Shown piece after piece: positions 47,954-60,812 of a stretch of DNA of 64,000 nucleotides; the first letter of the stretch is position 1; each line of letters starts with the position of its first letter. The notes below the pieces were generated by a model that saw only the letters and a list, made by a program, of their open reading frames with translations, searched no databases and was not told the origin of the DNA. Source of the DNA: Microlunatus phosphovorus NM-1 (GTDB lineage Bacteria; Actinomycetota; Actinomycetes; Propionibacteriales; Propionibacteriaceae); assembly GCF_000270245.1 (NCBI RefSeq), contig NC_015635.1, positions 4,278,001-4,342,000 on the forward strand. The letters run 5' to 3'. A program made the position numbers and the translations under genes.

Positions 47954-49408
47954 CTACGCCGGCTCTTCAGTGGCATGAGAGTCGGTGAGGGTGAAGGCGC
48001 CGACTGTGGCGATGAGGCCGACCACGACAGCGAGCAGCGCATAGCTGATCCGCTCGCCGTGGAAGAACGACTGGACGAGATCGCTGCTCCAGACACCGGC
48101 CGGCAGCTGAGCGGTGACGAGTGCGGCGATCATGGTGCCGATCATCGCGGTGCCGACGCTGGTGCCGACCTCCTGGGCGGTGTCGTTGAGCGCAGCACCG
48201 ATCGAGGTGCGGTTGTCGGGCATCGCATCCACGAGGGCGACTGCGCAGATCGTCATCACCGTTCGCATGCCGATGGTCATGGCGACCATGCAGACGGCAA
48301 TGGCAACGTATCCGTGGTCGACGGCCAACGCCATGCCAGCGAGGGAGCCGGCCAGGAAGACGGCGCCGACCAGGCAAGCGATCCGATGACCGAACCGGTG
48401 CGCGAGCCACTCGGAGAAGGGCGTAGCGGCGATCATCGTCACAATCATCGGCAGGTTAGCCAGACCGGCACGGACGGGACTCCACCCGTACGCGTACTGG
48501 AAGTGCAGGATCAGCCCGAACATCACGCTGGCCATGGCGATCGAGGTGCCAATTTGGGCAATGGCCGCACCCCGCACGGTGCCATTGGAGAACAGGCTCA
48601 GGTCCAGCATGGGTGCTGCGCTGCGACGCTCGTGCCAGACGAAGAGGACTGCAGCAGCAATAGCGCCGATGACTGACGCGATGGTGATCACCGAAAGCCA
48701 GCCGTGTTCGACGCCGCTGGTCAGCGCATAGCAGGCGAAGCCGATGGCAAGCAGACTCAACGCGGCGCCTGGCAGGTCGAGTGCATCGTGGGTGAGATCT
48801 TCGGGCCGGTCAGCAGGCACGCCGAAGCGGACGCCGAGGCACGCGATCAGCGCGATCGGGGCATTCACCAGCAGCAGCCACTCCCATCGCACGTGGGCCA
48901 AGGCCGTACCGCCGAGCAGCGGTCCGAGGACGAAGCCGGCCATGCCGACCACGATCATCACCGTCATCGCCCGCATCCGTACCTGGTTGTCGTCGAAGAG
49001 GCGGAAGACCAACGAGTTGGTGATCGGAGCCATCGCCGCCGCAGCAATACCCAAGGCGGCCCGCAGAGCAATGAGCTCCCCGGTGGTGGTGACCGCGATG
49101 ACGCACAGACTGAGCAGCCCGAAGACAGCGAGCCCTATCAAGAGCATGCGACGGCGGCCGAACCGGTCGGCCATGGATCCCGCGGTGAGCAGCAGCCCGC
49201 CGAAGGTCAGCGAATACGCGCCGACGACCCACTGCAGCGACGTCGTTCCACCGCCGAGATCTCGGCCGATGGTGGGCAGCGCGATGGACAACAAGGTGTT
49301 GTCGACCATCTCGACGAAGAAGGCCAGGCACAGAGCCGCCAGCGGGATCCAGGCAGCACGGAGAGACGGGTAGCTGCGGGACGGAACATGAGTGGCTAAA
49401 GCGCTCAT
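47954..49408 (-). CDS. MFS exporter, DHA2 type
   Basis: A 484-residue transporter with 14 hydrophobic segments. Helix 1 has the acidic motif FVEMVDNTLLSIALPTIG; motif A reads AGSMADRFGRRRMLLIGL. Proline/glycine-rich motif C is GFVLGPLLGGTALAHVRWEW. ATG at MSALATHVPS follows GGGAGGTTTCGCC. It is divergent from a TetR gene, and three palindromes lie between them, so it is probably an inducible drug exporter. Confidence 0.9.
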   Translation of the reverse strand: MSALATHVPSRSYPSLRAAWIPLAALCLAFFVEMVDNTLLSIALPTIGRDLGGGTTSLQWVVGAYSLTFGGLLLTAGSMADRFGRRRMLLIGLAVFGLLSLCVIAVTTTGELIALRAALGIAAAAMAPITNSLVFRLFDDNQVRMRAMTVMIVVGMAGFVLGPLLGGTALAHVRWEWLLLVNAPIALIACLGVRFGVPADRPEDLTHDALDLPGAALSLLAIGFACYALTSGVEHGWLSVITIASVIGAIAAAVLFVWHERRSAAPMLDLSLFSNGTVRGAAIAQIGTSIAMASVMFGLILHFQYAYGWSPVRAGLANLPMIVTMIAATPFSEWLAHRFGHRIACLVGAVFLAGSLAGMALAVDHGYVAIAVCMVAMTIGMRTVMTICAVALVDAMPDNRTSIGAALNDTAQEVGTSVGTAMIGTMIAALVTAQLPAGVWSSDLVQSFFHGERISYALLAVVVGLIATVGAFTLTDSHATEEPA

Positions 49409-49422
49409 GGCGAAACCTCCCA

Positions 49423-49476
49423 TCGAATGCTGTTCGAGTATCGATCAACGTTCGATACGATAGAACAACGTTCGAT
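49423..49476. promoter_or_regulatory. Three operator-like palindromes between the exporter and tetR genes
   Basis: ATCGAATGCTGTTCGA (49423-49438), ATCGATCAACGTTCGAT (49440-49456) and ATAGAACAACGTTCGAT (49460-49476) share an ATCGAA...TTCGAT arm pair with a 5-6-base centre. They lie end to end in the 97-bp divergent region, 15 to 68 bases from the exporter ATG. This is the expected binding region for the TetR protein. Confidence 0.6.
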
Positions 49477-49505
49477 GTGGGGCAAGATCTGGTTGGATGT
49501 GAGGC

Positions 49506-50252
49506 ATGGCACAGTCCGGACTGGCACGATCTCGGCCGGCGCAGGCACGATCCCGATCGGGGCGATCCCGACCGTCTCAGGGACGTCGCCGCGCCTCGCA
49601 CTCGATGGACGCCGTTCTCACCGAGGCGGTCGCCCTGCTCGATGAGGCAGGGGAAGCCGCTCTCACGTTTCGGGCGCTCGCGGACCGCCTGGGCGGCGGT
49701 GCAGCCAGCATCTACTGGTACGTCTCCAACAAGGACGAGTTGCTTGATCGCGCCACCGACCACGTCGTCGGTGCGGTACTGGCCGACATCGAGAAGCACG
49801 CGGCCACCGACGACCCCATCGCAGACCTCCGGGCGATAGCCACGACGCTCTTTGACGCCATCGTGCAACAACCATGGCTGGGCACGTACTTCATGCGCAA
49901 CACCGATCTCCAGGTCAACGCACTGCGACTCTACGAACACATCGGCCAGCAGACTCTTCGCCTTCAGCTCACCCCGAAGCAGCGGTTCCACGCCGTGTCC
50001 GCCATCGTCGGCGTGGTGATCGGCAGCGCCGTCGACCTGGCTCAGGAGCCGCCGCCGGAGGTGCGGGAAGGGGCGGTGGATCGCGAGGAGTACCTCCATC
50101 GGTGGGCCCAGTCCTGGCGAGAGCTCGATCCCGAGGCCTTCCCGTTCGTCCACGAGATCATCGACGAGTTCGACGGCCACGACGACGCCGACCAGTTCCG
50201 CGCCGCCCTCGATCTCACCCTGGCAGGCCTGCGACTCCAGGCCGGAGCCTGA
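49506..50252 (+). CDS. TetR family regulator of the divergent exporter
   Basis: A 248-residue regulator. A basic Ser/Arg-rich N-terminal arm of about 33 residues precedes the HTH: DAVLTEAVALLDEAGEAALT and FRALADRLGGGAASIYWYVS. The C-terminal domain (HAATDDPIADLRAIATTLFD and ERFHAVSAIVGVVIGSAVDL-like core) belongs to the TetR_C group. The ATG opens the frame; a second ATG at MDAVLTEAV would remove the arm. It probably represses itself and the exporter. Confidence 0.88.
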   Translation: MAQSGLARSRPAQARSRSGRSRPSQGRRRASHSMDAVLTEAVALLDEAGEAALTFRALADRLGGGAASIYWYVSNKDELLDRATDHVVGAVLADIEKHAATDDPIADLRAIATTLFDAIVQQPWLGTYFMRNTDLQVNALRLYEHIGQQTLRLQLTPKQRFHAVSAIVGVVIGSAVDLAQEPPPEVREGAVDREEYLHRWAQSWRELDPEAFPFVHEIIDEFDGHDDADQFRAALDLTLAGLRLQAGA

Positions 50253-50256
50253 ACTC

Positions 50257-50349
50257 CTAACCAAGTCGTCGCGTGATGCAGCGTCGGCGCCAAACACCGA
50301 CTGCGCCCTCGGCAGCCGCGACCTCGATGATCAGTCCGGTGCGCGTCAT
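50257..50349 (-). pseudogene. 2'-5' RNA ligase family, 30-codon 5' remnant
   Basis: An ATG-initiated frame encodes TRTGLIIEVAAAEGAVGVWR, resembling the first strand and helix of actinobacterial 2'-5' RNA ligase-like proteins, then reaches a stop after 30 codons. The catalytic HxT motifs are missing. The 230 bases upstream of it hold nothing recognisable. Confidence 0.4.
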
Positions 50350-50582
50350 CGCCAAATCGTAGAGTGTCAAGCACAGTAGGTGCGCTCGACCCAGCGGGGC
50401 AGCCGCCCCACGGTGAGCATGACGGGTTGATCTACTGGCGCAACCTCGCTGCCGTCAGCCCAAGTAGCCATCGGCACGATTGTTAAGACATCCCAAGTGC
50501 GTGAGCAACGCGCCGCCGCAGGAACCGTCGGCCGGCGGACCGGTGATCATCCGCGTCAGCGGATGATGGACGATGTCGAGTC

Positions 50583-51335
50583 ATGACTGTGCCACTGCAC
50601 GTACCGTGCTGGATCGAGTCGGATGGCGTTGAGGTCTGGCTCGTCGCCGGTCCTGGCCGGGGTCGGATTCCAGATCTTGTCGAGGCTGAACGTGTCGCCT
50701 CGGCCAGTGCCCGTCTGGGTGCCGTCCTGGCTGCGAACGCGGATGCCGACGACCCGGAGCGGGTCGGACAGCTGATGTCATCCGGTTACCGCCGGGTGTT
50801 CTCCATGGTCGAACTCGAGCGCGACACCGCACCCCTGGCCACCGTCTCAGCGCCGGGATCGATCGTCGCCGTGACGGACAACGACGCCGACGCGATGCAC
50901 CAACTGACAACAGTGGTCTGGGCAGGGCGGCCCTTCTTCGCGATGCCAACTCTGGAGTCGTACCGCAGCTGGGTGCGAAACGCCGATCCTCGGCTGATGC
51001 TGCTCGCCTGGCATGACGCGGCGCTGATCGGCTACGTCGCCGTCAAAGAGGACCCCACCCGAGTGGAGGTCGTCGATATCCAGGTGCACCCACACCACCA
51101 GCGCCGCGGGGTCGCGACTGCTCTGTTGGCGCAGGTAGTGCAAGAGGCCCGACATCGCTGCAGCCCCCGCGTGTGGCTGGAGACGGAGGGGGACGACCCG
51201 GTCGGCGCGAGACGGTTTTACGAGCAACTCGGCTTTCGCCTCGCTGCCGAGCACCTCAGATTTCGCAAGCCCGCGGATACCACCGCAGACCCGGCGGCGG
51301 GACTCCCGGTCCTAGCAGAGCGAGGCGCCGGCTAA
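50583..51335 (+). CDS. GNAT family N-acetyltransferase
   Basis: A 250-residue protein with the catalytic GNAT domain in the C-terminal half: EVVDIQVHPHHQRRGVATALL near residue 165 is motif A and DPVGARRFYEQLGFRLAAE near residue 207 is the end of the fold. The first 85 residues are a degenerate partner module. Acceptor unknown. Its 3' end overlaps the convergent methyltransferase gene by 24 bp. Confidence 0.86.
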   Translation: MTVPLHVPCWIESDGVEVWLVAGPGRGRIPDLVEAERVASASARLGAVLAANADADDPERVGQLMSSGYRRVFSMVELERDTAPLATVSAPGSIVAVTDNDADAMHQLTTVVWAGRPFFAMPTLESYRSWVRNADPRLMLLAWHDAALIGYVAVKEDPTRVEVVDIQVHPHHQRRGVATALLAQVVQEARHRCSPRVWLETEGDDPVGARRFYEQLGFRLAAEHLRFRKPADTTADPAAGLPVLAERGAG

Positions 51336-52109
51336 GACGTAGATCACCGGCACAAATCGGCCGAGGAACTGATGGAGTCCCCATTGCAGACTGGCCTCGG
51401 CCGTGCGGTAGGCGTCCTGACCATAGCGCTCGATGACACAGTCTCGGCTGCGGCGCAGCCGAGCCAGACGCAGCAGTTCGTGCGATACGACCTGGTTTCG
51501 TTCCTCGATGTACTCACGCCATTCGGTGCCGATGACATGCTTCCTGACGACCACGAAGCCCGCTGCATCGAAACCGGCTTCGAGGTCGCCCTCGACGAGA
51601 TTGGCCACGACGTTGCCGAGGGGTTCATGGATCGAGGCCGTCTCGACAGGGTCGATGGGTCCGTGCAGGACATTGGTGTAGGCGATCAAGTGTCCGTCCG
51701 CGCGGAGCACTCGGCGCATCTGAGTCAGGGCGGTCGGGAGGTCGGGCAGTACCTCGATCACATCGCGGCACCAGATGACATCGACGCTGGCCGGCGCCTC
51801 GGCCAGGTTCTCGGCGACTCCACATCGGATCGTGATCCGGTCGGTCAGGCTGGCTTCCTCCACTGCGGTCTGGGCTCGCTGGACATGCCACGGCACCGGG
51901 TCCACGCCGATTCCGTACGCGTCGTAGCGGCGGACCAGCTCGATCAAGTGACGCGCGTCTCGACAGCCAACATCAAGGATTCGGTGGCCGACGCGAAGGT
52001 AGTCATCGGCGACGTCGTAGAGCTGATCGGGCCCGACCGGGTTGAGACTCGAGTCGAGATCTTCGAACAGACTCCAGAAGGTCTTGCTGTAGATCTCGGC
52101 CATATCCAT
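51312..52109 (-). CDS. Class I SAM-dependent methyltransferase
   Basis: A 265-residue enzyme with motif I RILDVGCRDARHLIELVRR near residue 42 (an Asp-Ala-Arg replaces the usual Gly-x-Gly end), motif II YGIGVDPVPWHV, DVIWCRDVIEVLPD as motif IV and LRADGHLIAYTNVLHG as post-IV. The first 30 residues (AEIYSKTFWSLFEDLDSSL) form the usual lid helix. ATG at MDMAEIY; another ATG two codons in and one four codons before are alternatives. Confidence 0.86.
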   Translation of the reverse strand: MDMAEIYSKTFWSLFEDLDSSLNPVGPDQLYDVADDYLRVGHRILDVGCRDARHLIELVRRYDAYGIGVDPVPWHVQRAQTAVEEASLTDRITIRCGVAENLAEAPASVDVIWCRDVIEVLPDLPTALTQMRRVLRADGHLIAYTNVLHGPIDPVETASIHEPLGNVVANLVEGDLEAGFDAAGFVVVRKHVIGTEWREYIEERNQVVSHELLRLARLRRSRDCVIERYGQDAYRTAEASLQWGLHQFLGRFVPVIYVLAGASLC

Positions 52110-52269
52110 GGAGCCCAGCATCCACGATGTGAGCTTCCAATCCCAGGGCGGCGCATCAGCCCGAGCCACGGCAGTGATCGACGTGGTCGCGTACGATCCC
52201 GGTTGGCCGAATGCGGCGACCGGAACAAATGGGCTGCGTGGAGCGGGCTGCGGTGGTGTGATCGTTTGC

Positions 52270-53160
52270 ATGGCCACCGAGTTGAGCATTCCGGACCCCA
52301 GCGAGCTTGACGATGTCGTGGGCACCCTCCGCAGCTGGCAGCGCGACGAAGCTCCGATCCAGCTGCACCCAGGAGACCTCGGCTGGCACTGGCGGTTCGG
52401 TGCAGATGAGCTGGCGAGTACGGTGCGAACCTGGAGTCGGAACGGTGAGATCTGTGCGATCGGATTCCTGGACGGCCCGGATGTGCTGCGCATGACTGTT
52501 GCACCCGAGGTCTGGCTTGACGACGAACTGGCCCACGACGTGGTAACAGATCTGTCCGCCCCCGAGCGCGGCGTCCTGCCCGCCGGAAAGGTGTCGGTCG
52601 AGGTGCCCGACAGCACCCGAATCCAGGACCTGCTCTCGGAGTATGCATGGACTGCGGGCGATCCGTGGACGCCGTTGCACTTAGGGCTGACCGGACGTGT
52701 GGCCCAGACGGATCCGCGGATCGAGGTGGTCGATTCCGCCGAGCAGGTATCTGAGTGCACGGCGGTCCATCGGTCGGCTTGGGGATCTGAGGGTTTCACC
52801 GACGAGCAGTGGTACGCGATGGCGGACGGGTCACCCTTCGCCGAGGCTCGGTGTCTGCTCGGACGTGACGACCAGGGCATCGCGGTGGCCACGGTGACAG
52901 TCTGGGCGGCCGGACCGGGCAGACCGGGTCTGCTCGAGCCGCTGGGCGTGCACGCCAACCATCGACGGCGCGGATACGGTGCGGCAATCTGCATGGCTGC
53001 GGCCGCGGCGCTTCGGGAGCTGGGCTCGTCGAGCGCGCTCGTCTGCACGCCGAGCTCGCTTCAGAGCGCTGTCAGGACCTACGAGGCGGCAGGGTTCGAA
53101 ACACGCTCCGAGCGTCTGGACCGGACGCGCGACGCCACGACCAAGCCTCTACTGCCGTAG
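52270..53160 (+). CDS. Double-domain GNAT acetyltransferase
   Basis: A 296-residue protein. The C-terminal module is complete: LEPLGVHANHRRRGYGAAIC near residue 225 is motif A, and LQSAVRTYEAAGFETRSE near residue 265 the late segment. The N-terminal module (DLGWHWRFGADELASTVRTW) has lost motif A. It resembles the genes near 42.5 and 50.6 kb in layout. ATG after GTTTGC; the frame runs further upstream without coding character. Confidence 0.85.
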   Translation: MATELSIPDPSELDDVVGTLRSWQRDEAPIQLHPGDLGWHWRFGADELASTVRTWSRNGEICAIGFLDGPDVLRMTVAPEVWLDDELAHDVVTDLSAPERGVLPAGKVSVEVPDSTRIQDLLSEYAWTAGDPWTPLHLGLTGRVAQTDPRIEVVDSAEQVSECTAVHRSAWGSEGFTDEQWYAMADGSPFAEARCLLGRDDQGIAVATVTVWAAGPGRPGLLEPLGVHANHRRRGYGAAICMAAAAALRELGSSSALVCTPSSLQSAVRTYEAAGFETRSERLDRTRDATTKPLLP

Positions 53161-53207
53161 CGGAATTGTGCGCTCCGGGAGGCACGGTTCTTGCCTAGGA
53201 TGGAACC

Positions 53208-53494
53208 ATGACGGCGCAGGCAAGGGCTATCGACCCGACCCCAGTGACCCCGCCGTGATCTTGGGCCTCCTTCCCGACCAGCACCACGCGCAGTTCTTGC
53301 GGAAGTACGCCATCGCCATCGAGCAGGCGAGACGGCCAGAGCAATATCGGATGCTCCAGGCGTTGCTTCAGCTGTGGCGACTTCGAGCGGTCGCCTACAG
53401 CGACCCTGCGTGCGCGTCCCGGCTTGGCTCGGCGGGCGCGGCAACAGCCGACGACGTACCGGCCGAGCGGCTCTTTCCCGGCTGGCCGGGGTGA
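53208..53494 (+). pseudogene. DUF6247-like antitoxin-type protein, frameshifted near the start
   Basis: ATG begins a frame that stops after 16 codons (MTAQARAIDP). A neighbouring frame carries the recognisable domain DPSDPAVILGLLPDQHHAQF, then EQARRPEQYRMLQALLQLWR and LRAVAYSDP, as in DUF6247 proteins found upstream of RelE-like toxins. One missing base near 53235-53245 would join them. A GTG inside the second frame could start a shortened protein. The stop overlaps the next frame by 4 bp (GTGA). Confidence 0.6.
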
Positions 53495-53640
53495 GCTACC
53501 GGGTCGTTCGCGCCGCAGGCGCCGCCACAGCCAGCCGGCTCGATCCTGTCGAGTTGCTCGGCGATGTCCACCAGCCGATCCTGGCACGCCTCGTCGTACG
53601 CCGCGGCTGGGGCCTGGTCACGTCGGCGCGCGAAGGCCTA
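53491..53640 (+). pseudogene. Possible RelE-like toxin remnant
   Basis: GTG overlapping the antitoxin stop opens a frame beginning VSYRVVRAAGAATASRLDPV, which resembles the start of RelE-like toxins in position and sequence. After about 45 codons the similarity is lost and the frame runs into the convergent gene. Support is mainly positional. Confidence 0.35.
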
Positions 53641-54892
53641 GCTGCTGGATGCCCTCGAGGTGCAGATCGGGCTTCGTGACCTTGCCGTCGGTGGGGTCGT
53701 AGAGGAACAGGCTTCCATCAAGGATGCCGACGAGCCGATCGTCGGGAAGCCACAGCAGGGAGCTCACGTCGCCGTACCCTCGCGAATCCGCAATGCGGGT
53801 GAGGACGTCACCGGTCCGAAGGTCCAGAATCCGCAGTTCGGCTGATCCGGACCGCGCCCAATTCCGCAGCACCGCATAGCGACCATCGCGGGACATGACG
53901 CCGCTCTCGTTGTCGTTGACCGGAGCGGGCCCGATCCGCCGCCGTACGCCGGTGTCGCGGTCGAGGAGGTACCGGCTGCAGCGCAATCTGTCGTCGCAGT
54001 CGGTGATGAGAATCGCGGACGTACCGACGGCCAAGACCTCACCGCGGGTGAGCCGCCGCGGACCGTTGGGTGTCATGACGTAGTAGCCGCCGGAACTGGA
54101 CAAGATCAGCCCACCGCGACCGTCGGTCTGGACAGCATCGGCCGGGTAGGACGACGGACCCCGATCGGCGTCGGCCGGTCGGCCCTCCAGGTCGGTCAGC
54201 CGAGTGGTCGGAACCTCGCCCCGATACGTGGTGACCCACAACCGGCCGGGCGGTCCGGGCCAGATGGTCTCCGGCGTTGCCAGTCCTTCGGGCAGGGCCT
54301 CAGGCCGTTTGCCGTCGTACACCCGGAAGCCGTCGGCAGCGTCGCCCCAATCCCGGACGATGATTTGACCGCGGTCCACGATGAAGATCTTTGGGCCGCC
54401 GGAGGACGAAGCCGGAGTGTCAATCGCGGTGACCAACTGCTTGGCGGTTTGGATGCGGTAGAGCCGGTTGTCCGATCGTGCGAATAGATCCAGGTTGGTG
54501 TCGTCGAGGAACCCTCGGATTCGCCACTGTTGACCCGGGGATGGTGATGACGTGGGCGTAGGCATTGCGCTCGGCGTCGGCAGGGGTTGATTGGTCGGCG
54601 TGGTCGACGGCGCGGGACTACTGGCAGGCTCGTGGTCTCTGGTGTTGTTGTAGATCGCCAGGCTCGTGATTATCACGACCGCGCCCGCAGCCACGGCGAC
54701 GAGACGTCCCCGCTTAGCGCCAGCGGGCCGAGACGGCGGACCGAGATCGAGCGACTCCACAAGGGTCAGTATCTGTCGACTGTCATACAAGACGACGCCG
54801 GGGCAGCTGGGCGCGTATGCCCGCAGCGGAGCGGCTCGAGTTCGACGAGATCGATATCCGCCAGGGTGCTCCATAAGCTCCGCGATGCGCAC
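53618..54892 (-). CDS. Membrane-anchored beta-propeller-like protein
   Basis: Up to 424 residues. A cytoplasmic arm ends in a single transmembrane helix (LVAVAAGAVVIITSLAIYNN, about residues 65-84), then a proline/serine/threonine-rich linker of about 40 residues leads to an exported domain with repeated beta strands, for example LYRIQTAKQLVTAID, GRLWVTTYRGEVP, GGLILSSSGGYYVM and DGRYAVLRNWARSGSAELRI, consistent with a WD40/YncE-like propeller. Start uncertain: GTG at the given position or a TTG about 34 codons later (LYDSRQILTLVESLDLG). No enzyme motif seen. Confidence 0.7.
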   Translation of the reverse strand: MRIAELMEHPGGYRSRRTRAAPLRAYAPSCPGVVLYDSRQILTLVESLDLGPPSRPAGAKRGRLVAVAAGAVVIITSLAIYNNTRDHEPASSPAPSTTPTNQPLPTPSAMPTPTSSPSPGQQWRIRGFLDDTNLDLFARSDNRLYRIQTAKQLVTAIDTPASSSGGPKIFIVDRGQIIVRDWGDAADGFRVYDGKRPEALPEGLATPETIWPGPPGRLWVTTYRGEVPTTRLTDLEGRPADADRGPSSYPADAVQTDGRGGLILSSSGGYYVMTPNGPRRLTRGEVLAVGTSAILITDCDDRLRCSRYLLDRDTGVRRRIGPAPVNDNESGVMSRDGRYAVLRNWARSGSAELRILDLRTGDVLTRIADSRGYGDVSSLLWLPDDRLVGILDGSLFLYDPTDGKVTKPDLHLEGIQQLGLRAPT

Positions 54893-55050
54893 CTCGACGA
54901 GGTGCTGGTCGGCGGGTACGAGCGCGGCGTACTGGTCGCAGGCGACGTCGACCCAGGTGAGGCATAGTCGGGCACGTCAGGCTTCAGCGTGCGGTTGAGG
55001 TGCGGCCAGCATGGACACCATTGCTCCCCGCAGGCTCGAGAGGAGACGTT

Positions 55051-55092
55051 ATGGGTGCTCCGAAGGGCTCGAAGCACAATTTCGATACCTAA
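55051..55092 (+). other. Possible 13-codon leader ORF before the lipoyl-like gene
   Basis: ATG preceded by GAGAGGAGACGTT, a strong ribosome-binding site, encodes MGAPKGSKHNFDT and stops. It lies 62 bases upstream of the lipoyl-like gene, in sequence of lower GC content than the surroundings. It may be a leader peptide or chance; no homology is known to me. Confidence 0.35.
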
Positions 55093-55154
55093 CTAAGCCT
55101 AACCCCACAATAGTCTCATATGCGTGCGTTGCGACTTAGGAGATGAAGTAATAG

Positions 55155-55436
55155 ATGAGTTCCGTAATCGAAGTCAAGGTGCCGGATATCGGCGACTACC
55201 AAAATCTACCGGTGATCGAAGTCGTCGTCAAGATTGGTGACACCGTCGATAAAGACGATCCTCTAATTACCCTTGAGTCGGACAACATGATGATCGAGGT
55301 GCCAAGCTCCGCCGCGGGAATGATCAAGGAAATTAAGACCAAGGTCGGCGATAACGTATCGGAGGGTTCTCTCATCCTCGTGTTGGACGCGTTGGACGCT
55401 ACACCTGTCTCGACCTACTCAGGTCAGCTGAGTTAG
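55155..55436 (+). CDS. Free-standing lipoyl/biotinyl-like domain lacking the acceptor lysine
   Basis: A 93-residue protein consisting of one lipoyl domain. It fits the E2-type domains of proteobacterial 2-oxoacid dehydrogenases: IEVKVPDIGDYQNLPVIEVV, then VKIGDTVDKDDPLITLES, the hairpin, and KVGDNVSEGSLILVLDA. The hairpin reads ESDNMMIEVPS where the modified Lys of ESDKA(T/S)M(E/D)VPS is expected; Lys is replaced by Asn (codon AAC). No E1, E2 catalytic or E3 gene is near. Codons are A/T-richer than the neighbours, which suggests recent transfer. AGGAG precedes the ATG. Confidence 0.88.
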   Translation: MSSVIEVKVPDIGDYQNLPVIEVVVKIGDTVDKDDPLITLESDNMMIEVPSSAAGMIKEIKTKVGDNVSEGSLILVLDALDATPVSTYSGQLS

Positions 55437-55467
55437 AGCCTGCGAGTCTGCTCAGGCGCCCGACTGT

Positions 55468-56475
55468 TCAAGTAGGCCGACGCCATCGGGGGTAGGTCTG
55501 CGGGGCGAGCAGCGCGCGTTCCAGTTCGACGGGTAGTCCGTGGGTGGGACGGTCTCCGCGTTGGGTCGGCCATCCGTCAGCTTGGAGCCACACCCAAGTG
55601 TCGGCAACCGTTTCTACGATCGGGCGGCACCGCAGACCTGCGGCGAGTGCTCGCGATGTGTCGGCCTCGAGGAAGCCGGCGAACTCACCGGCTTCGGGGA
55701 CCCAGCACGGTAACTGAGTCCACGGCTGAACGCCGACTGCTGCCAAGTCTGCCTCGGAGATCCAGTGGAACTCAGCGTCGGACCCGGTGGCGTCCTTGCA
55801 GCTGGACAGCAGTTGCTCCGTCGTTGCGTGGCCAGATTCGCTGATAACGTCGATCGGGCCCCGGAGGTCCGTGGTCAGCGCGTACAGCATCCAGCCGGCG
55901 AGGTCGCGGACGTCGACGTACTGCAGGGGTCGCCGTGGACGCCCAGGAGCCACGACGGCGCCGCCCTTGGCGATCCGCGCGAGCCACCACGGCAACCGCC
56001 CGACGTCCTCGTAAGGTCCGAGGATGAGCCCGGCCCGGGCCAAGACGGCGTCGGGAAACGCAGCGATCACGCCGAGCTCGGCTCCTCGCTTCGACGCCGG
56101 ACAATCGCCGTCGGCCGCACTGGCCTCACCGTCGACCAGCGGTGAGTCTTCATCTCGATGGGTGCCCCAGGCATAGACCGAACTGCTGGAGACGTAGGCG
56201 TAACGCTCAGCCGATCCGGCCAATGCTGCGGCTGCGGTCGTTGCCACTATCGGCGCCCCAGACCAGGTATCGATCACGGCGTCGAACGAGCGCCCGACGA
56301 GGGCAGCGCGCAACTGCTTCTCGTCGGTACGGTCTGCCACCAACGATGTCACCGCGGCAGGCAGGTCGCCGGTGAGGCCACGGTTGAGCGCGGTGACGTG
56401 CCAGCCGTGTGTCAACGCCTCGGTGAGGATGGCCCGCCCTACGAATCGGGTTCCACCCAGCACCAGTAGGTCCAC
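55468..56475 (-). CDS. NAD-dependent epimerase/dehydratase family protein
   Basis: A 335-residue extended SDR. The Rossmann start is LLVLGGTRFVGRAILTEALT, followed by ALNRGLTGDLP, an arginine position that favours NADP or nucleotide ligands, VSSSSVYAWGTHRDEDSP near residue 105 with the catalytic-type Tyr-less SSSVY, and GLILGPYEDVGRLPWW. It resembles actinobacterial reductases annotated as nucleotide-sugar epimerases; an active-site YxxxK is not evident, since CPASKRGAE occurs in its place. GTG at VDLLVLGG. Confidence 0.83.
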   Translation of the reverse strand: MDLLVLGGTRFVGRAILTEALTHGWHVTALNRGLTGDLPAAVTSLVADRTDEKQLRAALVGRSFDAVIDTWSGAPIVATTAAAALAGSAERYAYVSSSSVYAWGTHRDEDSPLVDGEASAADGDCPASKRGAELGVIAAFPDAVLARAGLILGPYEDVGRLPWWLARIAKGGAVVAPGRPRRPLQYVDVRDLAGWMLYALTTDLRGPIDVISESGHATTEQLLSSCKDATGSDAEFHWISEADLAAVGVQPWTQLPCWVPEAGEFAGFLEADTSRALAAGLRCRPIVETVADTWVWLQADGWPTQRGDRPTHGLPVELERALLAPQTYPRWRRPT

Positions 56476-56624
56476 GTCATCAGTCTGCGCCCCCAACCAC
56501 CACGAGTTGCACACCACTGCAAGCAGACCGTCCAGCGGGAAGTGAGATGTCGGTTCGAGCTATGGTCCAGCACGATCGGATCGGAGGTCCGCAAACTCGT
56601 CAAGGGACACCGGAAGGAGTGCGG

Positions 56625-56715
56625 GTGGTGGATGAGATCCTGGGAATTCCGCTGCGCAGCGACCTGGTCTCGACCTGGCGAGGATGGTTCGCCCCACCGG
56701 TGCAACCGTTCCTAG
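56625..56715 (+). pseudogene. Truncated paralogue of the 46.9-kb Cys/His protein
   Basis: GTG preceded by GGAAGGAG opens EILGIPLRSDLVSTWRGWFA and PPVQPF, matching the N-terminal block of the protein at 46.9 kb (LGISVTDRLISRWRGWFAPP). Similarity ends after about 30 codons. A ribosome-binding site and start codon are retained. Confidence 0.7.
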
Positions 56716-56982
56716 GTGTATTGACCTCGCCGTTCAGCCGCCAGCTTGATCGTTCACCGCCCCAAGCGTTGTCGCAGACCGCGAGGCGGACTGCGTCAGC
56801 GAGACTGAAGGTCTGCACCCCCCGACCTGCTCGCCATCGTCAGGATTCGTCGGCGGGCTCACCACTTCAACCTCGGCTCACGCCACAGCCATGCCTTCTT
56901 GGGATGCGGCAGGTGAGAGCGGTACAGGTGAGTACCGGCGTCAGCGATCCCGACATGTGCACCTAGACGATGAAAGGGCCCC
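56716..56982. other. Intergenic stretch with no recognisable gene
   Basis: No frame here shows family similarity or a convincing ribosome-binding site. It lies between two 5'-end remnants and is probably decayed coding sequence. Confidence 0.5.
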
Positions 56983-57054
56983 GAAAGTGATCGACGCCCA
57001 CTCCCACCGGTCAGGTCGGTGAAGCAAGGGGTAACGAGCCGCCGAGTCCCTCAC
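56983..57054 (-). pseudogene. Nudix protein, 24-codon 5' remnant
   Basis: GTG begins RDSAARYPLLHRPDRWEWAS, which aligns with LADRFPLLHQPDRWDWAAIT at the start of the intact Nudix protein at 13.1 kb (about 12 of 18 positions identical). No Nudix box follows. Confidence 0.65.
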
Positions 57055-57197
57055 CGGGACGCCCCAGACACATCGATCACCGAAGAACCCTAGCGGCCCC
57101 GGTTGGAGCGCCGATTGAGCAGGCAAGGTCGCCGCAAGTGGAACGCCGATCGGGACCTGATCATCGGACGCTGACTCTCTGCTGCTTAGGTTGAGGA

Positions 57198-57241
57198 GTG
57201 GAGGAGTTGGAGGTCACTCGCGCGAAGTCGGCGGCTATCTC
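57198..57241 (+). pseudogene. APH-fold kinase, first 14 codons, split by IS21
   Basis: GTG begins EELEVTRAKSAAIS; the frame is cut inside Ser-15 by the IS21 element. The rest of the gene resumes after the 6-bp target duplication at 59990. Removing the element and one TATCTC copy gives an uninterrupted frame of 289 codons, including the stop. Confidence 0.82.
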
Positions 57242-57361
57242 TGTCAAGGGCCAGCAGAACTTGACCACTGGCGGTCTTGATGGCTGACCGGTGGCGGTCA
57301 CGAGAAGTGCACGGTGGTGGCCATGGGTTCTGCCCGGGGTTGGCCACCGTCCGGCCTTGGT

Positions 57362-58171
57362 TCAGCTGCTCAAGGGGTTCACCCCCTGGCCGGCGAGTGC
57401 TTGGGTGAGGCGGACCGAGTCGCCGGTGGTCTGGCAGATGTGGGCGTGGTGGAGGAGCCGGTCGACGGTGGCGGTGGCCAGGGTCTTGGGCATGAGCTCG
57501 TCGAAGGCTGCTGGGTGCAGGTTCGACGAGATCGCGATGGAGCGTTTCTCGTAGCCGGCGTCGACCAGCCGGTAGAGGCCCTCGGTGGCGTCGGCGGCGA
57601 CCGGGAGCAGCCCGATGTCGTCGACCACGATCAGGTCGGCCCGTAGCACCCGGGCGATCGCTTTGGTGACGGTGTCGTCGGCGCGGTGCCGGCGCAGCAG
57701 CACCCCGAGGTCTTCCAGGGTGAACCAGGCGACTCGTAGTCCTTGTTCGACGGCGTGCTGGCCGAGTGCTTCGAGCAGGAACGTCTTCCCGGTGCCCGAC
57801 GGTCCGCAGACGACGAGGTTCTCGCGGCGGCCGATCCATTCCAGGGTGCGTAGCGCTTGCTGGGTTGGTGCTGGGATCGACGACAACTGGGGGTCCCAGC
57901 CGCCGAAGGTCTTGCCGGTGGGGAACCCGGCCGCGGTGCGGCGGGTGGCCAGGGCGGAGCGTTCCCGGCCGGCGACTTCCTCGGCGAGCAGGATCCGCAG
58001 CACCTCGACCGGTTCCCAGCGTTGTGCTCGGGCGGTGGCGATCACCTCCGGCGCGGCGCGGCGGATATGGGGCAGCCGCATCCGCCGCAGCAGCTGCTCG
58101 ACATCGGCCGGCAGCGGCGGCGGTAGCGGTGCCCCGGCTTTCGGGACCGCGGCAGTGGTGGTGGCGGTCAT
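57362..58171 (-). CDS. istB: IS21 helper ATPase IstB
   Basis: A 269-residue AAA+ protein of the DnaC-like IstB group. Walker A is LVVCGPSGTGKTFLLEAL near residue 120, Walker B LIVVDDIGLLP near residue 185. It assembles on target DNA and stimulates the IstA transposase. ATG overlaps the istA stop by 4 bp. Confidence 0.95.
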   Translation of the reverse strand: MTATTTAAVPKAGAPLPPPLPADVEQLLRRMRLPHIRRAAPEVIATARAQRWEPVEVLRILLAEEVAGRERSALATRRTAAGFPTGKTFGGWDPQLSSIPAPTQQALRTLEWIGRRENLVVCGPSGTGKTFLLEALGQHAVEQGLRVAWFTLEDLGVLLRRHRADDTVTKAIARVLRADLIVVDDIGLLPVAADATEGLYRLVDAGYEKRSIAISSNLHPAAFDELMPKTLATATVDRLLHHAHICQTTGDSVRLTQALAGQGVNPLSS

Positions 58172-59826
58172 CGGCCAACCCCCTGACTGCTGGTCACCGG
58201 GCTGCTGGTCATCACCTGGCTGTTGGTGACGGGTTGGCCGAGTTGTGCCCAGCTGAGGGTGCCCTGGGCCAGGGAGTGCTGGTCGCCGGCACGACGCGCC
58301 GCCGACGGCTGGTCGGGTCGGGGGTGGCGGGCGTGGTGGTCGAGGATGGAGGCCAGGTCGGCCTCGGCGAACCGGCCGTGGACGGCGGCGTGGCCGAGTG
58401 CCCAGTCCACGTCGCGGGCGTCGAACAGGCGGGACAGATCGACGGCCTGGGCCATCTTGACCCGCATCTTGCCCGTGCCGGCAGCTGCTGCCTCGCGCAG
58501 CCACAGCACCGCCCCGTCGCCGAGGGCGAGGAACGCTGACTCCGCCGGGTTCTTCGCTTTCGGGGCCCGGTCCAGCGGCCCGGCCGGGGCGGGCGGGAAA
58601 TGGCTGTCGTCGACCCGGGGGCTGCCGGGACGGGTGCGGTCGTGCCGGGCGATCTCGACCGGCCCCCGGGCCGGGTCGACATAGGTGATCACGACCTGCT
58701 CATCGACTCCGCCGACCCCATAGCCGCGGACCCACACCGTCTTGCCCAGCAGGCTGGTCCCGCCGAAAGGCTCCCCATCGGGGCCGGCCAGCCGGTAAGG
58801 CACCGAGTACTGGCCGCCCTCGAAAGTGACCATCGGCGTGTTCGCCGGCACGATCCGGGTCGTGCCGAACGCCACCGTGTAAGGGACAGCGGCGACCGGA
58901 TGCAGCCGGGCCCGTTCCTCGGCCAACATCTCCACCGGTGGCCGCCGGGTGATCCGGTGCGGGCGGGCGTTGACTCCGGTCTGGAACACTCCACAGGCCT
59001 TCCGCAGCTCAGCGAACGAGGCGTACTCGGGCAGCAGGTTCGCCTCCGTCGGCACCAGATCAGCCTTGCTGACCCGCACACTGGCCTCGCTGCCACCCTT
59101 CGACGCCGGATCCGCCGGCACACAGGTGTGCACGGTCACCGCGTAATGAGCCGCCCACGCGACCAGCTGCGCGTTACGGACCGGGATCCCGGCGATGTGG
59201 TCGGTGGTGACGGTCTTCTCATTGTCGGTCAGCACATAGGTCGGCACCCCACCCACCAGCCGGAACGTCTGGTCCAACGCGGCGAACACGCTCGGCAGCG
59301 TCTTGTCCCGCAACGCCAGCACGACCCGGAAACGGGACCAGGCCAGCCACGCGCAGAACAACACCGTGGCGACCCCGGCGACCATCGGGCCCTGCCCATA
59401 GTCGTACTGCAGCCACATCCCCGGCTCCGGGACCCATGGCCGGTGGACCCGTAACCGGCCATCACGGTAGGCCTGCTTCGCCTCCGCGACCGCGCGTCGG
59501 GTGGTCCGTTCCGACCCGGCATAGCCCATCGCGACCAGCTTGTCATGGGCCACATCCGCGCGGACCTTCCCGCGGGAACGCTCGACCAGCTCCTCCAGCT
59601 TCGGCAAAAACTCATCAATCAGCTGCGGCCGAACCACACCGTCGGCGACCGCACCACCCGCGGCGCGGGCCTCCACATAGCGTTTCACCGTGTTCGGCGA
59701 ACACCCCGCCAGCTCGGCGGCATCACGCAACGACCTGGTCAGGTCGTAGGCATCCAAAATCTTCATGATCTCCTCGGCAGACTTCAACTCATCCCTTCCT
59801 CGGGTAGCGATCGGGCGCATCAGCAC
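58168..59826 (-). CDS. istA: IS21 transposase IstA
   Basis: A 552-residue DDE transposase. An N-terminal HTH (LRDAAELAGCSPNTVKRYVE, about residues 33-52) is followed by the integrase core: LQYDYGQGPMVAGV (Asp), VPTYVLTDNEKTVTT (Asp) and ASKGGSEASVRVSKADLVPT (Glu), and a C-terminal beta domain. Start ATG close to the right end; an alternative two codons in. Confidence 0.95.
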   Translation of the reverse strand: MLMRPIATRGRDELKSAEEIMKILDAYDLTRSLRDAAELAGCSPNTVKRYVEARAAGGAVADGVVRPQLIDEFLPKLEELVERSRGKVRADVAHDKLVAMGYAGSERTTRRAVAEAKQAYRDGRLRVHRPWVPEPGMWLQYDYGQGPMVAGVATVLFCAWLAWSRFRVVLALRDKTLPSVFAALDQTFRLVGGVPTYVLTDNEKTVTTDHIAGIPVRNAQLVAWAAHYAVTVHTCVPADPASKGGSEASVRVSKADLVPTEANLLPEYASFAELRKACGVFQTGVNARPHRITRRPPVEMLAEERARLHPVAAVPYTVAFGTTRIVPANTPMVTFEGGQYSVPYRLAGPDGEPFGGTSLLGKTVWVRGYGVGGVDEQVVITYVDPARGPVEIARHDRTRPGSPRVDDSHFPPAPAGPLDRAPKAKNPAESAFLALGDGAVLWLREAAAAGTGKMRVKMAQAVDLSRLFDARDVDWALGHAAVHGRFAEADLASILDHHARHPRPDQPSAARRAGDQHSLAQGTLSWAQLGQPVTNSQVMTSSPVTSSQGVGR

Positions 59827-59983
59827 CGCTCATCGCACCCGAGGAAGGAGCCCAAACCCGGCAACCCGGGCAGGCAGACGACATCGTGTCGGGCAGATCC
59901 CATGACCGTCAGCGTTCAGTTCTCATGGCCGCCAACGATCAACTTCTTGGCCGTCTCCGTTCAGTTTCTCGTGGCCGCTGACA

Positions 59984-60812
59984 TATCTCCATCGCGGCGT
60001 CGCTTGGCCTGGCAGCGGACGAAGCGATCGTTCTCCATAGTTCGAACAGGCTGACGCTACGGGTGACGCCGTGCGACGTCCTCGCCCGGGTCACCCGCGT
60101 CGGCGAGGAGGACGCAGGTCTTGAGTTGCAGCGTGCACAACGACTCGCGGAGGCCGGATGCCCAGTCGGTGCCGTGGATCCGCGTGTGGATCCGCTGGTG
60201 TATGTGCGGGATGGTTACGCGGTGACGCTCTGGGCGTACTACGAGCTTGCGACGCCCACCGCGTTGCCCGAGGACTACGCCCGGGCGCTGACGCGCTTGC
60301 ACGCCGGCATGCGGACAGTAGATCTGCCCAGCCCGCGGTTCACAGATCGGATCGCGGAGGCGCACCACGTTGCGGCGAATCCCGCCCTGTCCCCAGAACT
60401 TGCCGGCACAGATCGCGAGCTCCTCGCCGGCCGGCTTGCCGACCTGCGGCGGAGGGTCGACCTGCCGGGTGCAACCCAGCAATTGCTTCACGGCGAGCCG
60501 CATCCCGGCAACGTGCTCGGCACGAAACAGGGCTCGGTCTTCATCGACTTCGAGACGATCTGCCGCGGACCGGTCGAGTTCGACCTCGCCCATGTTCCCG
60601 AGGCTGTCTGTGAGCACTACCCCGCCATCAACCAGGAGCTCCTGAACGCGTGCCGACAGCTCGTCCTTGCGATGGTCGCAGCCTGGCGTTGGAGGGTCGG
60701 CGACGAGTTCCCGAATCGACGGCGATGGGGGCAGGAGTTGCTGCGATCACTACGCGAGGGGCCTCCCTGGCCAACCCTCGACGCCTTGAGCAACCAACTC
60801 GAGGGCCCGTAA
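59984..60812 (+). pseudogene. APH-fold kinase, main part, split from its start by IS21
   Basis: Carries nearly the whole kinase: IVLHSSNRLTLRVTPCDVLA is the N-lobe strand, LLHGEPHPGNVLG the catalytic loop (HGE-type, common in this branch) and SVFIDFETICRGPVEFDLAH the metal-binding strand. GTG at 60063 could start a shortened product, but it would lack the first strands. The original start lies at 57198. Confidence 0.85.

Follow-up and report, generated by a model that had tools for sequence, protein, structure and literature searches.

Lipoyl domains belong to several described systems against which the small gene studied here, an open reading frame (ORF) for a single lipoyl domain in the actinobacterium Microlunatus phosphovorus NM-1, can be compared. 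The first lipoyl domain of the long-type AceF of Burkholderiales (TIGR01348) resembles it in sequence (up to 71% identity among the matches listed), start position, fold, Shine-Dalgarno-like leader, and a probable aceE end upstream. Unlike that domain, the ORF reads NMMI for KATM, has a linker of about 14 residues at most, lacks the binding domain and catalytic core, and stands alone in an actinobacterium. The N-terminal lipoyl domain of P64K-type LpdA, e.g., Neisseria 1gjx, is the top single-domain PDB match by sequence and fold, but P64K is described by its PDB title as an E3 chimera bearing a lipoyl domain, and the lysine is retained in its turn. LbpA of Hdr-like sulfur oxidation is likewise a single lipoyl domain as its own protein; unlike the ORF, it is GcvH-like, has a strictly conserved lysine, and is encoded in or near hdr clusters, as described in excerpts of PMC6067878. 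The plant BADC proteins are separate carrier-domain relatives without the modification motif; however, they are biotinyl and comprise three Arabidopsis isoforms with studied partners, whereas the ORF is one orphan lipoyl sequence (excerpts of PMC11926652). The roles of BADC proteins in acetyl-CoA carboxylase are given in those excerpts as inhibitors by some and assembly 'glue' by others.

The genome of M. phosphovorus NM-1, for which activated sludge is given as a source, has 5.7 Mb and 67.3% G+C (excerpts of PMC3534718); the assembly is a single contig of 5,683,123 bases, with completeness 100 and contamination 0.01. The features of the locus are listed in Table 1, in positions of the window, i.e., the whole stretch of 64,000 nucleotides that was analyzed.

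Table 1. Features of the lipoyl locus in window positions
Feature	Positions	Strand	Description
Lipoyl ORF, 93 aa	55155..55436	+	First lipoyl domain of betaproteobacterial-type AceF, 12-14 extra residues, then stop
Changed lipoylation turn	55284..55295	+	Codons 44-47 AAC ATG ATG ATC = NMMI, KATM expected
Low-G+C island, whole putative imported fragment	55072..55437		Two-segment likelihood change-point, likelihood ratio 41
Probable aceE remnant, last ~15 codons	55069..55115	+	S-K-H-N-F-D / P-N / K-P-N-P-T-I-V, two one-base frame shifts
Putative old aceE-aceF intergenic leader	55116..55154	+	Shine-Dalgarno-like AGGAG 55138-55142, 12 nt 5' of ATG

The bounds of the ORF are exact, with an ATG start, a TAG stop, and TAA TAG in frame immediately 5' of the ATG, and the product is MSSVIEVKVPDIGDY...LESDNMMIEVPS.... 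The original prediction that the protein follows the E2 lipoyl-domain consensus along its length was borne out by a PF00364 match over residues 6-77 (71.7 bits, 4.5e-20; Pfam cut-off 22.1) and by the near-invariant columns described below. The top NCBIfam model was the long-type AceF (TIGR01348), which matched residues 2-87 only; the score of 104.2 bits is far from the cut-off of 552.1 for a full-length protein with binding domain and catalytic core. The GCV_H score was 17.4 bits (cut-off 22.2), and the lysine of the GcvH type is absent. The nearest solved structures by sequence were lipoyl domains of E2 and E3. In agreement with PF00364, the AlphaFold model was a lipoyl barrel (mean pLDDT 79.9 in the best of five; residues 82-93 <50), and 1gjx was its best PDB match by Foldseek. 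The fold is predicted to be intact with moderate confidence, because the five models span 36 to 80 in pLDDT.

At the lipoylation turn, codon 44 (55284-55286) is AAC, and asparagine thus stands at the position of the lipoylated lysine in a stand-alone lipoyl domain, as had been claimed; the change extends over residues 44-47 (NMMI), where the relatives mostly read KATM or KATL. Lysine was found at this site in 273/278 tblastn rows from the collected loci (E up to 1e-8), the others being the query itself (three) and unreadable rows (two), and in 29 of the 32 rows from further loci (L140 onward), the remaining three again being the query. The check proposed earlier, an alignment of homologues at the hairpin in search of a clade with a conserved non-Lys residue, was run on 207 gap-free relatives and returned none without lysine; N44, M45, and M46 each occurred in 0/207 and I47 in 6/207. 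As the protein relatives are the best 80 of 479 confirmed, a rare lysine-less relative could be missed. The original prediction had also named an outcome that would speak against it, namely that homologues all keep the lysine and a single recent mutation removed it. The first half was observed, since all examined homologues (207/207) keep the lysine, but a single mutation does not fit four adjacent differing residues.

Codons 44-47 are at least 4 nt away from any of the 207 relatives and 5 nt from the commonest codons. The query has seven private residues (16, 18, 24, 44, 45, 46, and 62), and the run of three consecutive ones at 44-46 has P 0.0006 under random scatter, as computed with the site already known. 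Such clustering on the lipoyl turn is not what single-base drift would be expected to produce. As the private residues cluster at 44-46 and the relatives keep the lysine, the site-specific loss is real, a block change made by one complex mutation or by several. Because the lysine is the attachment point, no lipoylation of the domain is expected. Biotinylation motifs are of the MKM type, and MM occurs in some of them, which brought a putative biotinyl/lipoyl hybrid turn into consideration; the turn of the ORF reads SDNMM, and the MKM-type biotinyl carrier motif is absent. In Bacillus stearothermophilus, a lysine shifted by one place was not used for lipoylation; reductive acylation proceeded no more slowly with A43M beside the lysine but was slowed when the Asp was changed (PMC6270654). 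In excerpts of that paper, D43 and the loop joining strands 1 and 2 are E1-contact features; both are retained in the ORF, the loop as PDIGDY, and Met is present beside the Lys position. Since the Asp is kept and Met is tolerated in B. stearothermophilus, contact between the ORF protein and E1 is conceivable.

The ORF lies in an island of 49% G+C against 67% around it. The change-point fit placed the start within 55007-55085 and the end within 55336-55480, the best-fit end being one base beyond the ORF stop. The earlier observation that the gene is A/T-richer than its neighbors was confirmed: the 300-base stretch with the lowest G+C in the window (0.493) lies in the island, whereas the window averages 0.665 (sd 0.030) and the next unrelated stretch has 0.58, and position-3 G+C of the ORF is 0.667 versus 0.76-0.89 in 14 other ORFs measured. 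In the aligned part of the ORF, position-3 G+C is 0.69, and the mean of the relatives is 0.83. The piece therefore matches the composition of neither the neighboring ORFs nor the nearest sampled relatives. No convincing repeat pair bounding the island was found in a repeat scan, and no RNA family was found at the island, where integron sites were inspected by eye; simple scans of 54900-55600 gave no sigma-70-type promoter on the + strand and no terminator. A nine-base inverted pair, CGCAGGCTC / GAGCCTGCG at 55029-55037 / 55436-55444, was seen by eye to bracket the island without target duplication; the pair may be due to chance, because its core CAGGCTCG is also found at 54625 and 54659.

The statement that no dehydrogenase genes lie nearby held for the 10 flanking ORFs (47954-60812), none of which matched a dehydrogenase by Pfam, one of the ten having no family. 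There was no other PF00364 match within the window, and the nearest in a genome search was about 180 kb off. The island is adjoined by a 424-aa protein gene (53618-54892, - strand), in which no Pfam family was found. Some 2 kb away from the island, an IS21-type pair (an IstB match and an integrase-core match) occupies 57362-59826 (- strand); next comes an APH-family gene at 60063-60812. The epimerase gene adjoining the island had a 1e-60 match in 3/20 genus genomes, the host included; an empty insertion site could not be shown, because the two other genomes with the epimerase have different neighbors by ORF translations.

Upstream of the ORF, 39 nt before the ATG and in the correct orientation and place, a sequence like the AceE C-terminus was found; one frame gives TKPNPTIV, and another preceding it gives KHNFDT. 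The motif was first spotted by eye and the scoring was devised later, with equal freedom given to the controls. Among 55 AceE tails in the collected loci, most terminate in KPNPMTV, a few in KPNPTTV, and some are quite different (e.g., APWTV, KPNPARS). A frameshift-tolerant profile, in which each shift of frame carried a penalty, was built from 32 distinct tails among the 53/55 matching a KPNP-like pattern. It scored 34.5, ending at the last profile residue at 55115; this score was reached by 0/1000 shuffles (best 28.1) and 0/1326 stretches upstream of other ATGs in the window (best 28.2), and the junctions of 50 relatives, trimmed to 36 nt of aceE, scored 18.5 to 51.8. In a single-frame peptide test, the observed score was reached by 2/400 shuffles and 7/400 window stretches. 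DNA alignment of the leader with aceE-aceF junctions was not significant (58/1000 shuffles and 319/992 window stretches; P 0.06 and 0.32). For the 36 nt adjoining the ATG, the score against the leaders of relatives was reached by 16/1000 shuffles, 68/1326 window stretches, and 3/63 of those having GGAG, and this resemblance is suggestive only. The expected position of the aceE stop holds the sense codon TCA, and the aceE-to-aceF gap in relatives, where found, ranges from 9 nt (stop included) upward. An upstream remnant of the aceE 3' end, frameshifted, is well supported by these scores, if not proven, and its left edge may coincide with the junction. Where aceE precedes aceF in the operons of the relatives, the ORF has this frameshifted aceE-like tail only; the sole full AceE of the genome is encoded elsewhere.

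Consistent with an origin outside the host lineage, which had been proposed earlier as a transferred fragment and is upheld by the foreign composition and the probable aceE 3' remnant, the affinity of the ORF is to betaproteobacterial AceF. Protein identity reached 71% to its first lipoyl domain (Burkholderiales; best 80 of 479 confirmed relatives), and the nearest DNA among the collected loci was Paraburkholderia aceF (75% over 223 nt); the 115 to 170 nt on either side of the domain had a best E of 0.62 in these loci. In a tree of 106 rows picked from 219 domains, the query had the longest end branch (0.64) and was placed, with weak support and outside every starred set, among betaproteobacterial AceF/LpdA lipoyl domains. 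Its placement without a supported set could not separate AceF from LpdA; an AceF origin is preferred because the remnant upstream is aceE-like and not aceF-like.

Close matches are rare around the host. At E up to 1e-15, 2/198 family genomes had one (196/198 none): the host and a second genome (G014), in which the match opens an aceF-like frame behind aceE close to the contig end and retains the lysine. In the order sample, 19/391 genomes matched, and the 17 beyond these two belong to one genus and have long E2-like frames keeping the lysine. The class sample gave 3/394 and the phylum sample 12/396 at 1e-14, and the loci fetched keep the lysine. No further copy of the ORF was found in the host genome by DNA search, and no AceF-long match above the family cut-off was found elsewhere in it (best 206 versus 552 bits). 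The AceF-like lipoyl domains of the 17 same-order genomes (L122-L138), which lie near the betaproteobacterial ones in long frames, suggest that whole E2 genes moved separately into actinobacteria.

Against 158 relatives, the query deviates at K44, A45, and V57 only. Because relatives chosen by pattern bias such counts, the test was repeated with 78 domains containing none of the search patterns, all from loci up to L139; 21 of the 23 columns conserved at >=95% were kept, K44 and A45 being lost. Among leave-one-out controls, 64 domains lose none, nine lose one, and five lose two to four near-invariant columns. Two lost columns are thus within the control range, and the unusual feature of the query is which two are lost, not their number. 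The ORF aligns over 79 codons without stop, indel, or gap. Compared with its nearest relatives, dN is 0.178, dS 0.948, and dN/dS 0.19, and 35/55 differences are at position 3, although the synonymous component is overestimated owing to the lower G+C of the query at position 3. These differences look purifying, and in view of dN against dS constraint seems to have acted during most of the divergence, probably while the sequence was in the donor lineage; most of the conservation may predate the transfer. Position 3 held a mean share of 0.605 of the differences in 114 query pairs versus 0.533 in 3000 control pairs (91% of controls <= the query mean). Pure pseudogene drift for all of the ~30% divergence is unlikely, because this share is not below the control pairs, although the differing G+C favors the query. 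The frame shifts within ~45 nt of aceE-like tail, set against the 79 gapless lipoyl codons, may point to retention of the ORF, a contrast resting on one small tail.

On this evidence, the ORF is most probably a neutral relic, early in its decay, of a fragment from a proteobacterial aceE-aceF junction. Since an AceF-matching ORF stands behind an aceE-like tail, it is most likely a junction fragment cut at both ends and not a purpose-built gene. A fragment of some 0.37 kb from a Burkholderiales-like proteobacterial operon, spanning the aceE end to just past the first aceF lipoyl domain, would have been inserted into the actinobacterial chromosome. The aceF start codon and ribosome-binding leader would have been carried along with the fragment, and the single-domain ORF would therefore have survived by accident, the lysine being lost through a local block change at the turn. 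Neither the lysine nor the core of a working E2 domain is present, and a swinging-arm role is impossible, because the E2 core, the E1/E3-binding domain, and the modifiable lysine are all missing. We infer that the ORF is under no present selection. Decay, the other half of the earlier reading, is thus likely but partial: the aceE tail is frameshifted and lacks its stop at the expected place, and the lipoyl site is gone, whereas the lipoyl ORF carries no indel or stop.

A less probable reading, which we consider doubtful, is that the lysine-less domain was domesticated as a mimic that cannot be lipoylated and that would dock on E1 (AceE) or on the lipoyl-attaching enzymes as a decoy, assembly aid, or scaffold. 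By analogy, the best functional parallel would be the BADC proteins. In its strongest form, which is equally doubtful, the operon scrap would have been taken over, KATM rewritten to NMMI under selection, and the product turned into a BADC-like dominant regulator or scaffold of the host pyruvate dehydrogenase or lipoylation machinery. The intact predicted fold (pLDDT 79.9, 1gjx as best match), the retained E1-contact features D43 and PDIGDY, the A-to-M change tolerated beside the lysine in B. stearothermophilus, and the clustering of the change precisely on the turn are in its favor, and the genome encodes candidate partners, namely AceE, LipB, and an E2 with two lipoyl domains. However, a cut operon piece accounts for the origin, the foreign codon use shows no amelioration, and no lysine-less relative, second genome copy (by DNA), or conserved context was found. 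The ORF shares the missing modified lysine with BADC proteins but not their conservation in a lineage, the only other family genome with a match being K-bearing, and the BADC inhibitor model itself is disputed by the authors of PMC11926652, according to its excerpts. The suggestion of a recruited domain or new family accordingly fares poorly, with 0/207 relatives lacking the lysine and the close match in 2/198 family genomes including an AceE-AceF contig. If domestication were true, the ORF would be a bacterial counterpart of the lysine-less carrier-domain proteins of plants; a text search of open papers found no such counterpart, though one may still be in print.

A mobile, stand-alone lipoyl gene that had already lost its lysine in the donor and was imported whole as gene-sized cargo is improbable. 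The island is indeed of gene size (leader plus ORF), and the at least 4 differing nucleotides at the site point to a longer history, but an aceE-like tail lies immediately upstream, and no bounding repeat or RNA family was found. Among the 20 of 74 plasmid records listed, the annotation, where present, is lpdA, aceF, or another E2. Viral origin was considered and rejected: protein and alignment pattern scans of viral_contigs gave no confirmed relative, and there was no DNA match. Of four matching phage records, three carry an acetyltransferase E2 annotation and one carries none; the best PHROGs score was 15.3 bits (E 0.017), and PADLOC gave no match. Least credible of all is a sequencing or assembly artefact, arising from a read of contaminating DNA merged into the assembly or from wrong bases at the turn, since a short foreign stretch, although a classic contamination sign, here sits between ORFs of host-like composition in a complete single-contig genome with hardly any contamination, encodes a protein at least 29% different from every relative among those listed, and has four adjacent changed codons without a frame shift, unlike random errors.

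If the ORF is the relic described above, a stand-alone domain without its catalytic residue can arise without selection, because an operon junction cut at both ends leaves start, leader, and domain intact. An annotation pipeline could name such a scrap a biotin/lipoyl-containing protein, as was the case for a smaller one on a plasmid. Two Pandoraea oxalativorans plasmids, pPO70-1 (L147:4992-5060) and pPO70-2 (L148:3992-4060), both typed conjugative, carry an orphan 69-base scrap, EQALITLESDKATMEVPSSAAG-stop, which is a lipoyl turn keeping its lysine. On one plasmid it belongs to an annotated 32-aa 'biotin/lipoyl-containing protein', and on the other the annotation is a hypothetical protein.
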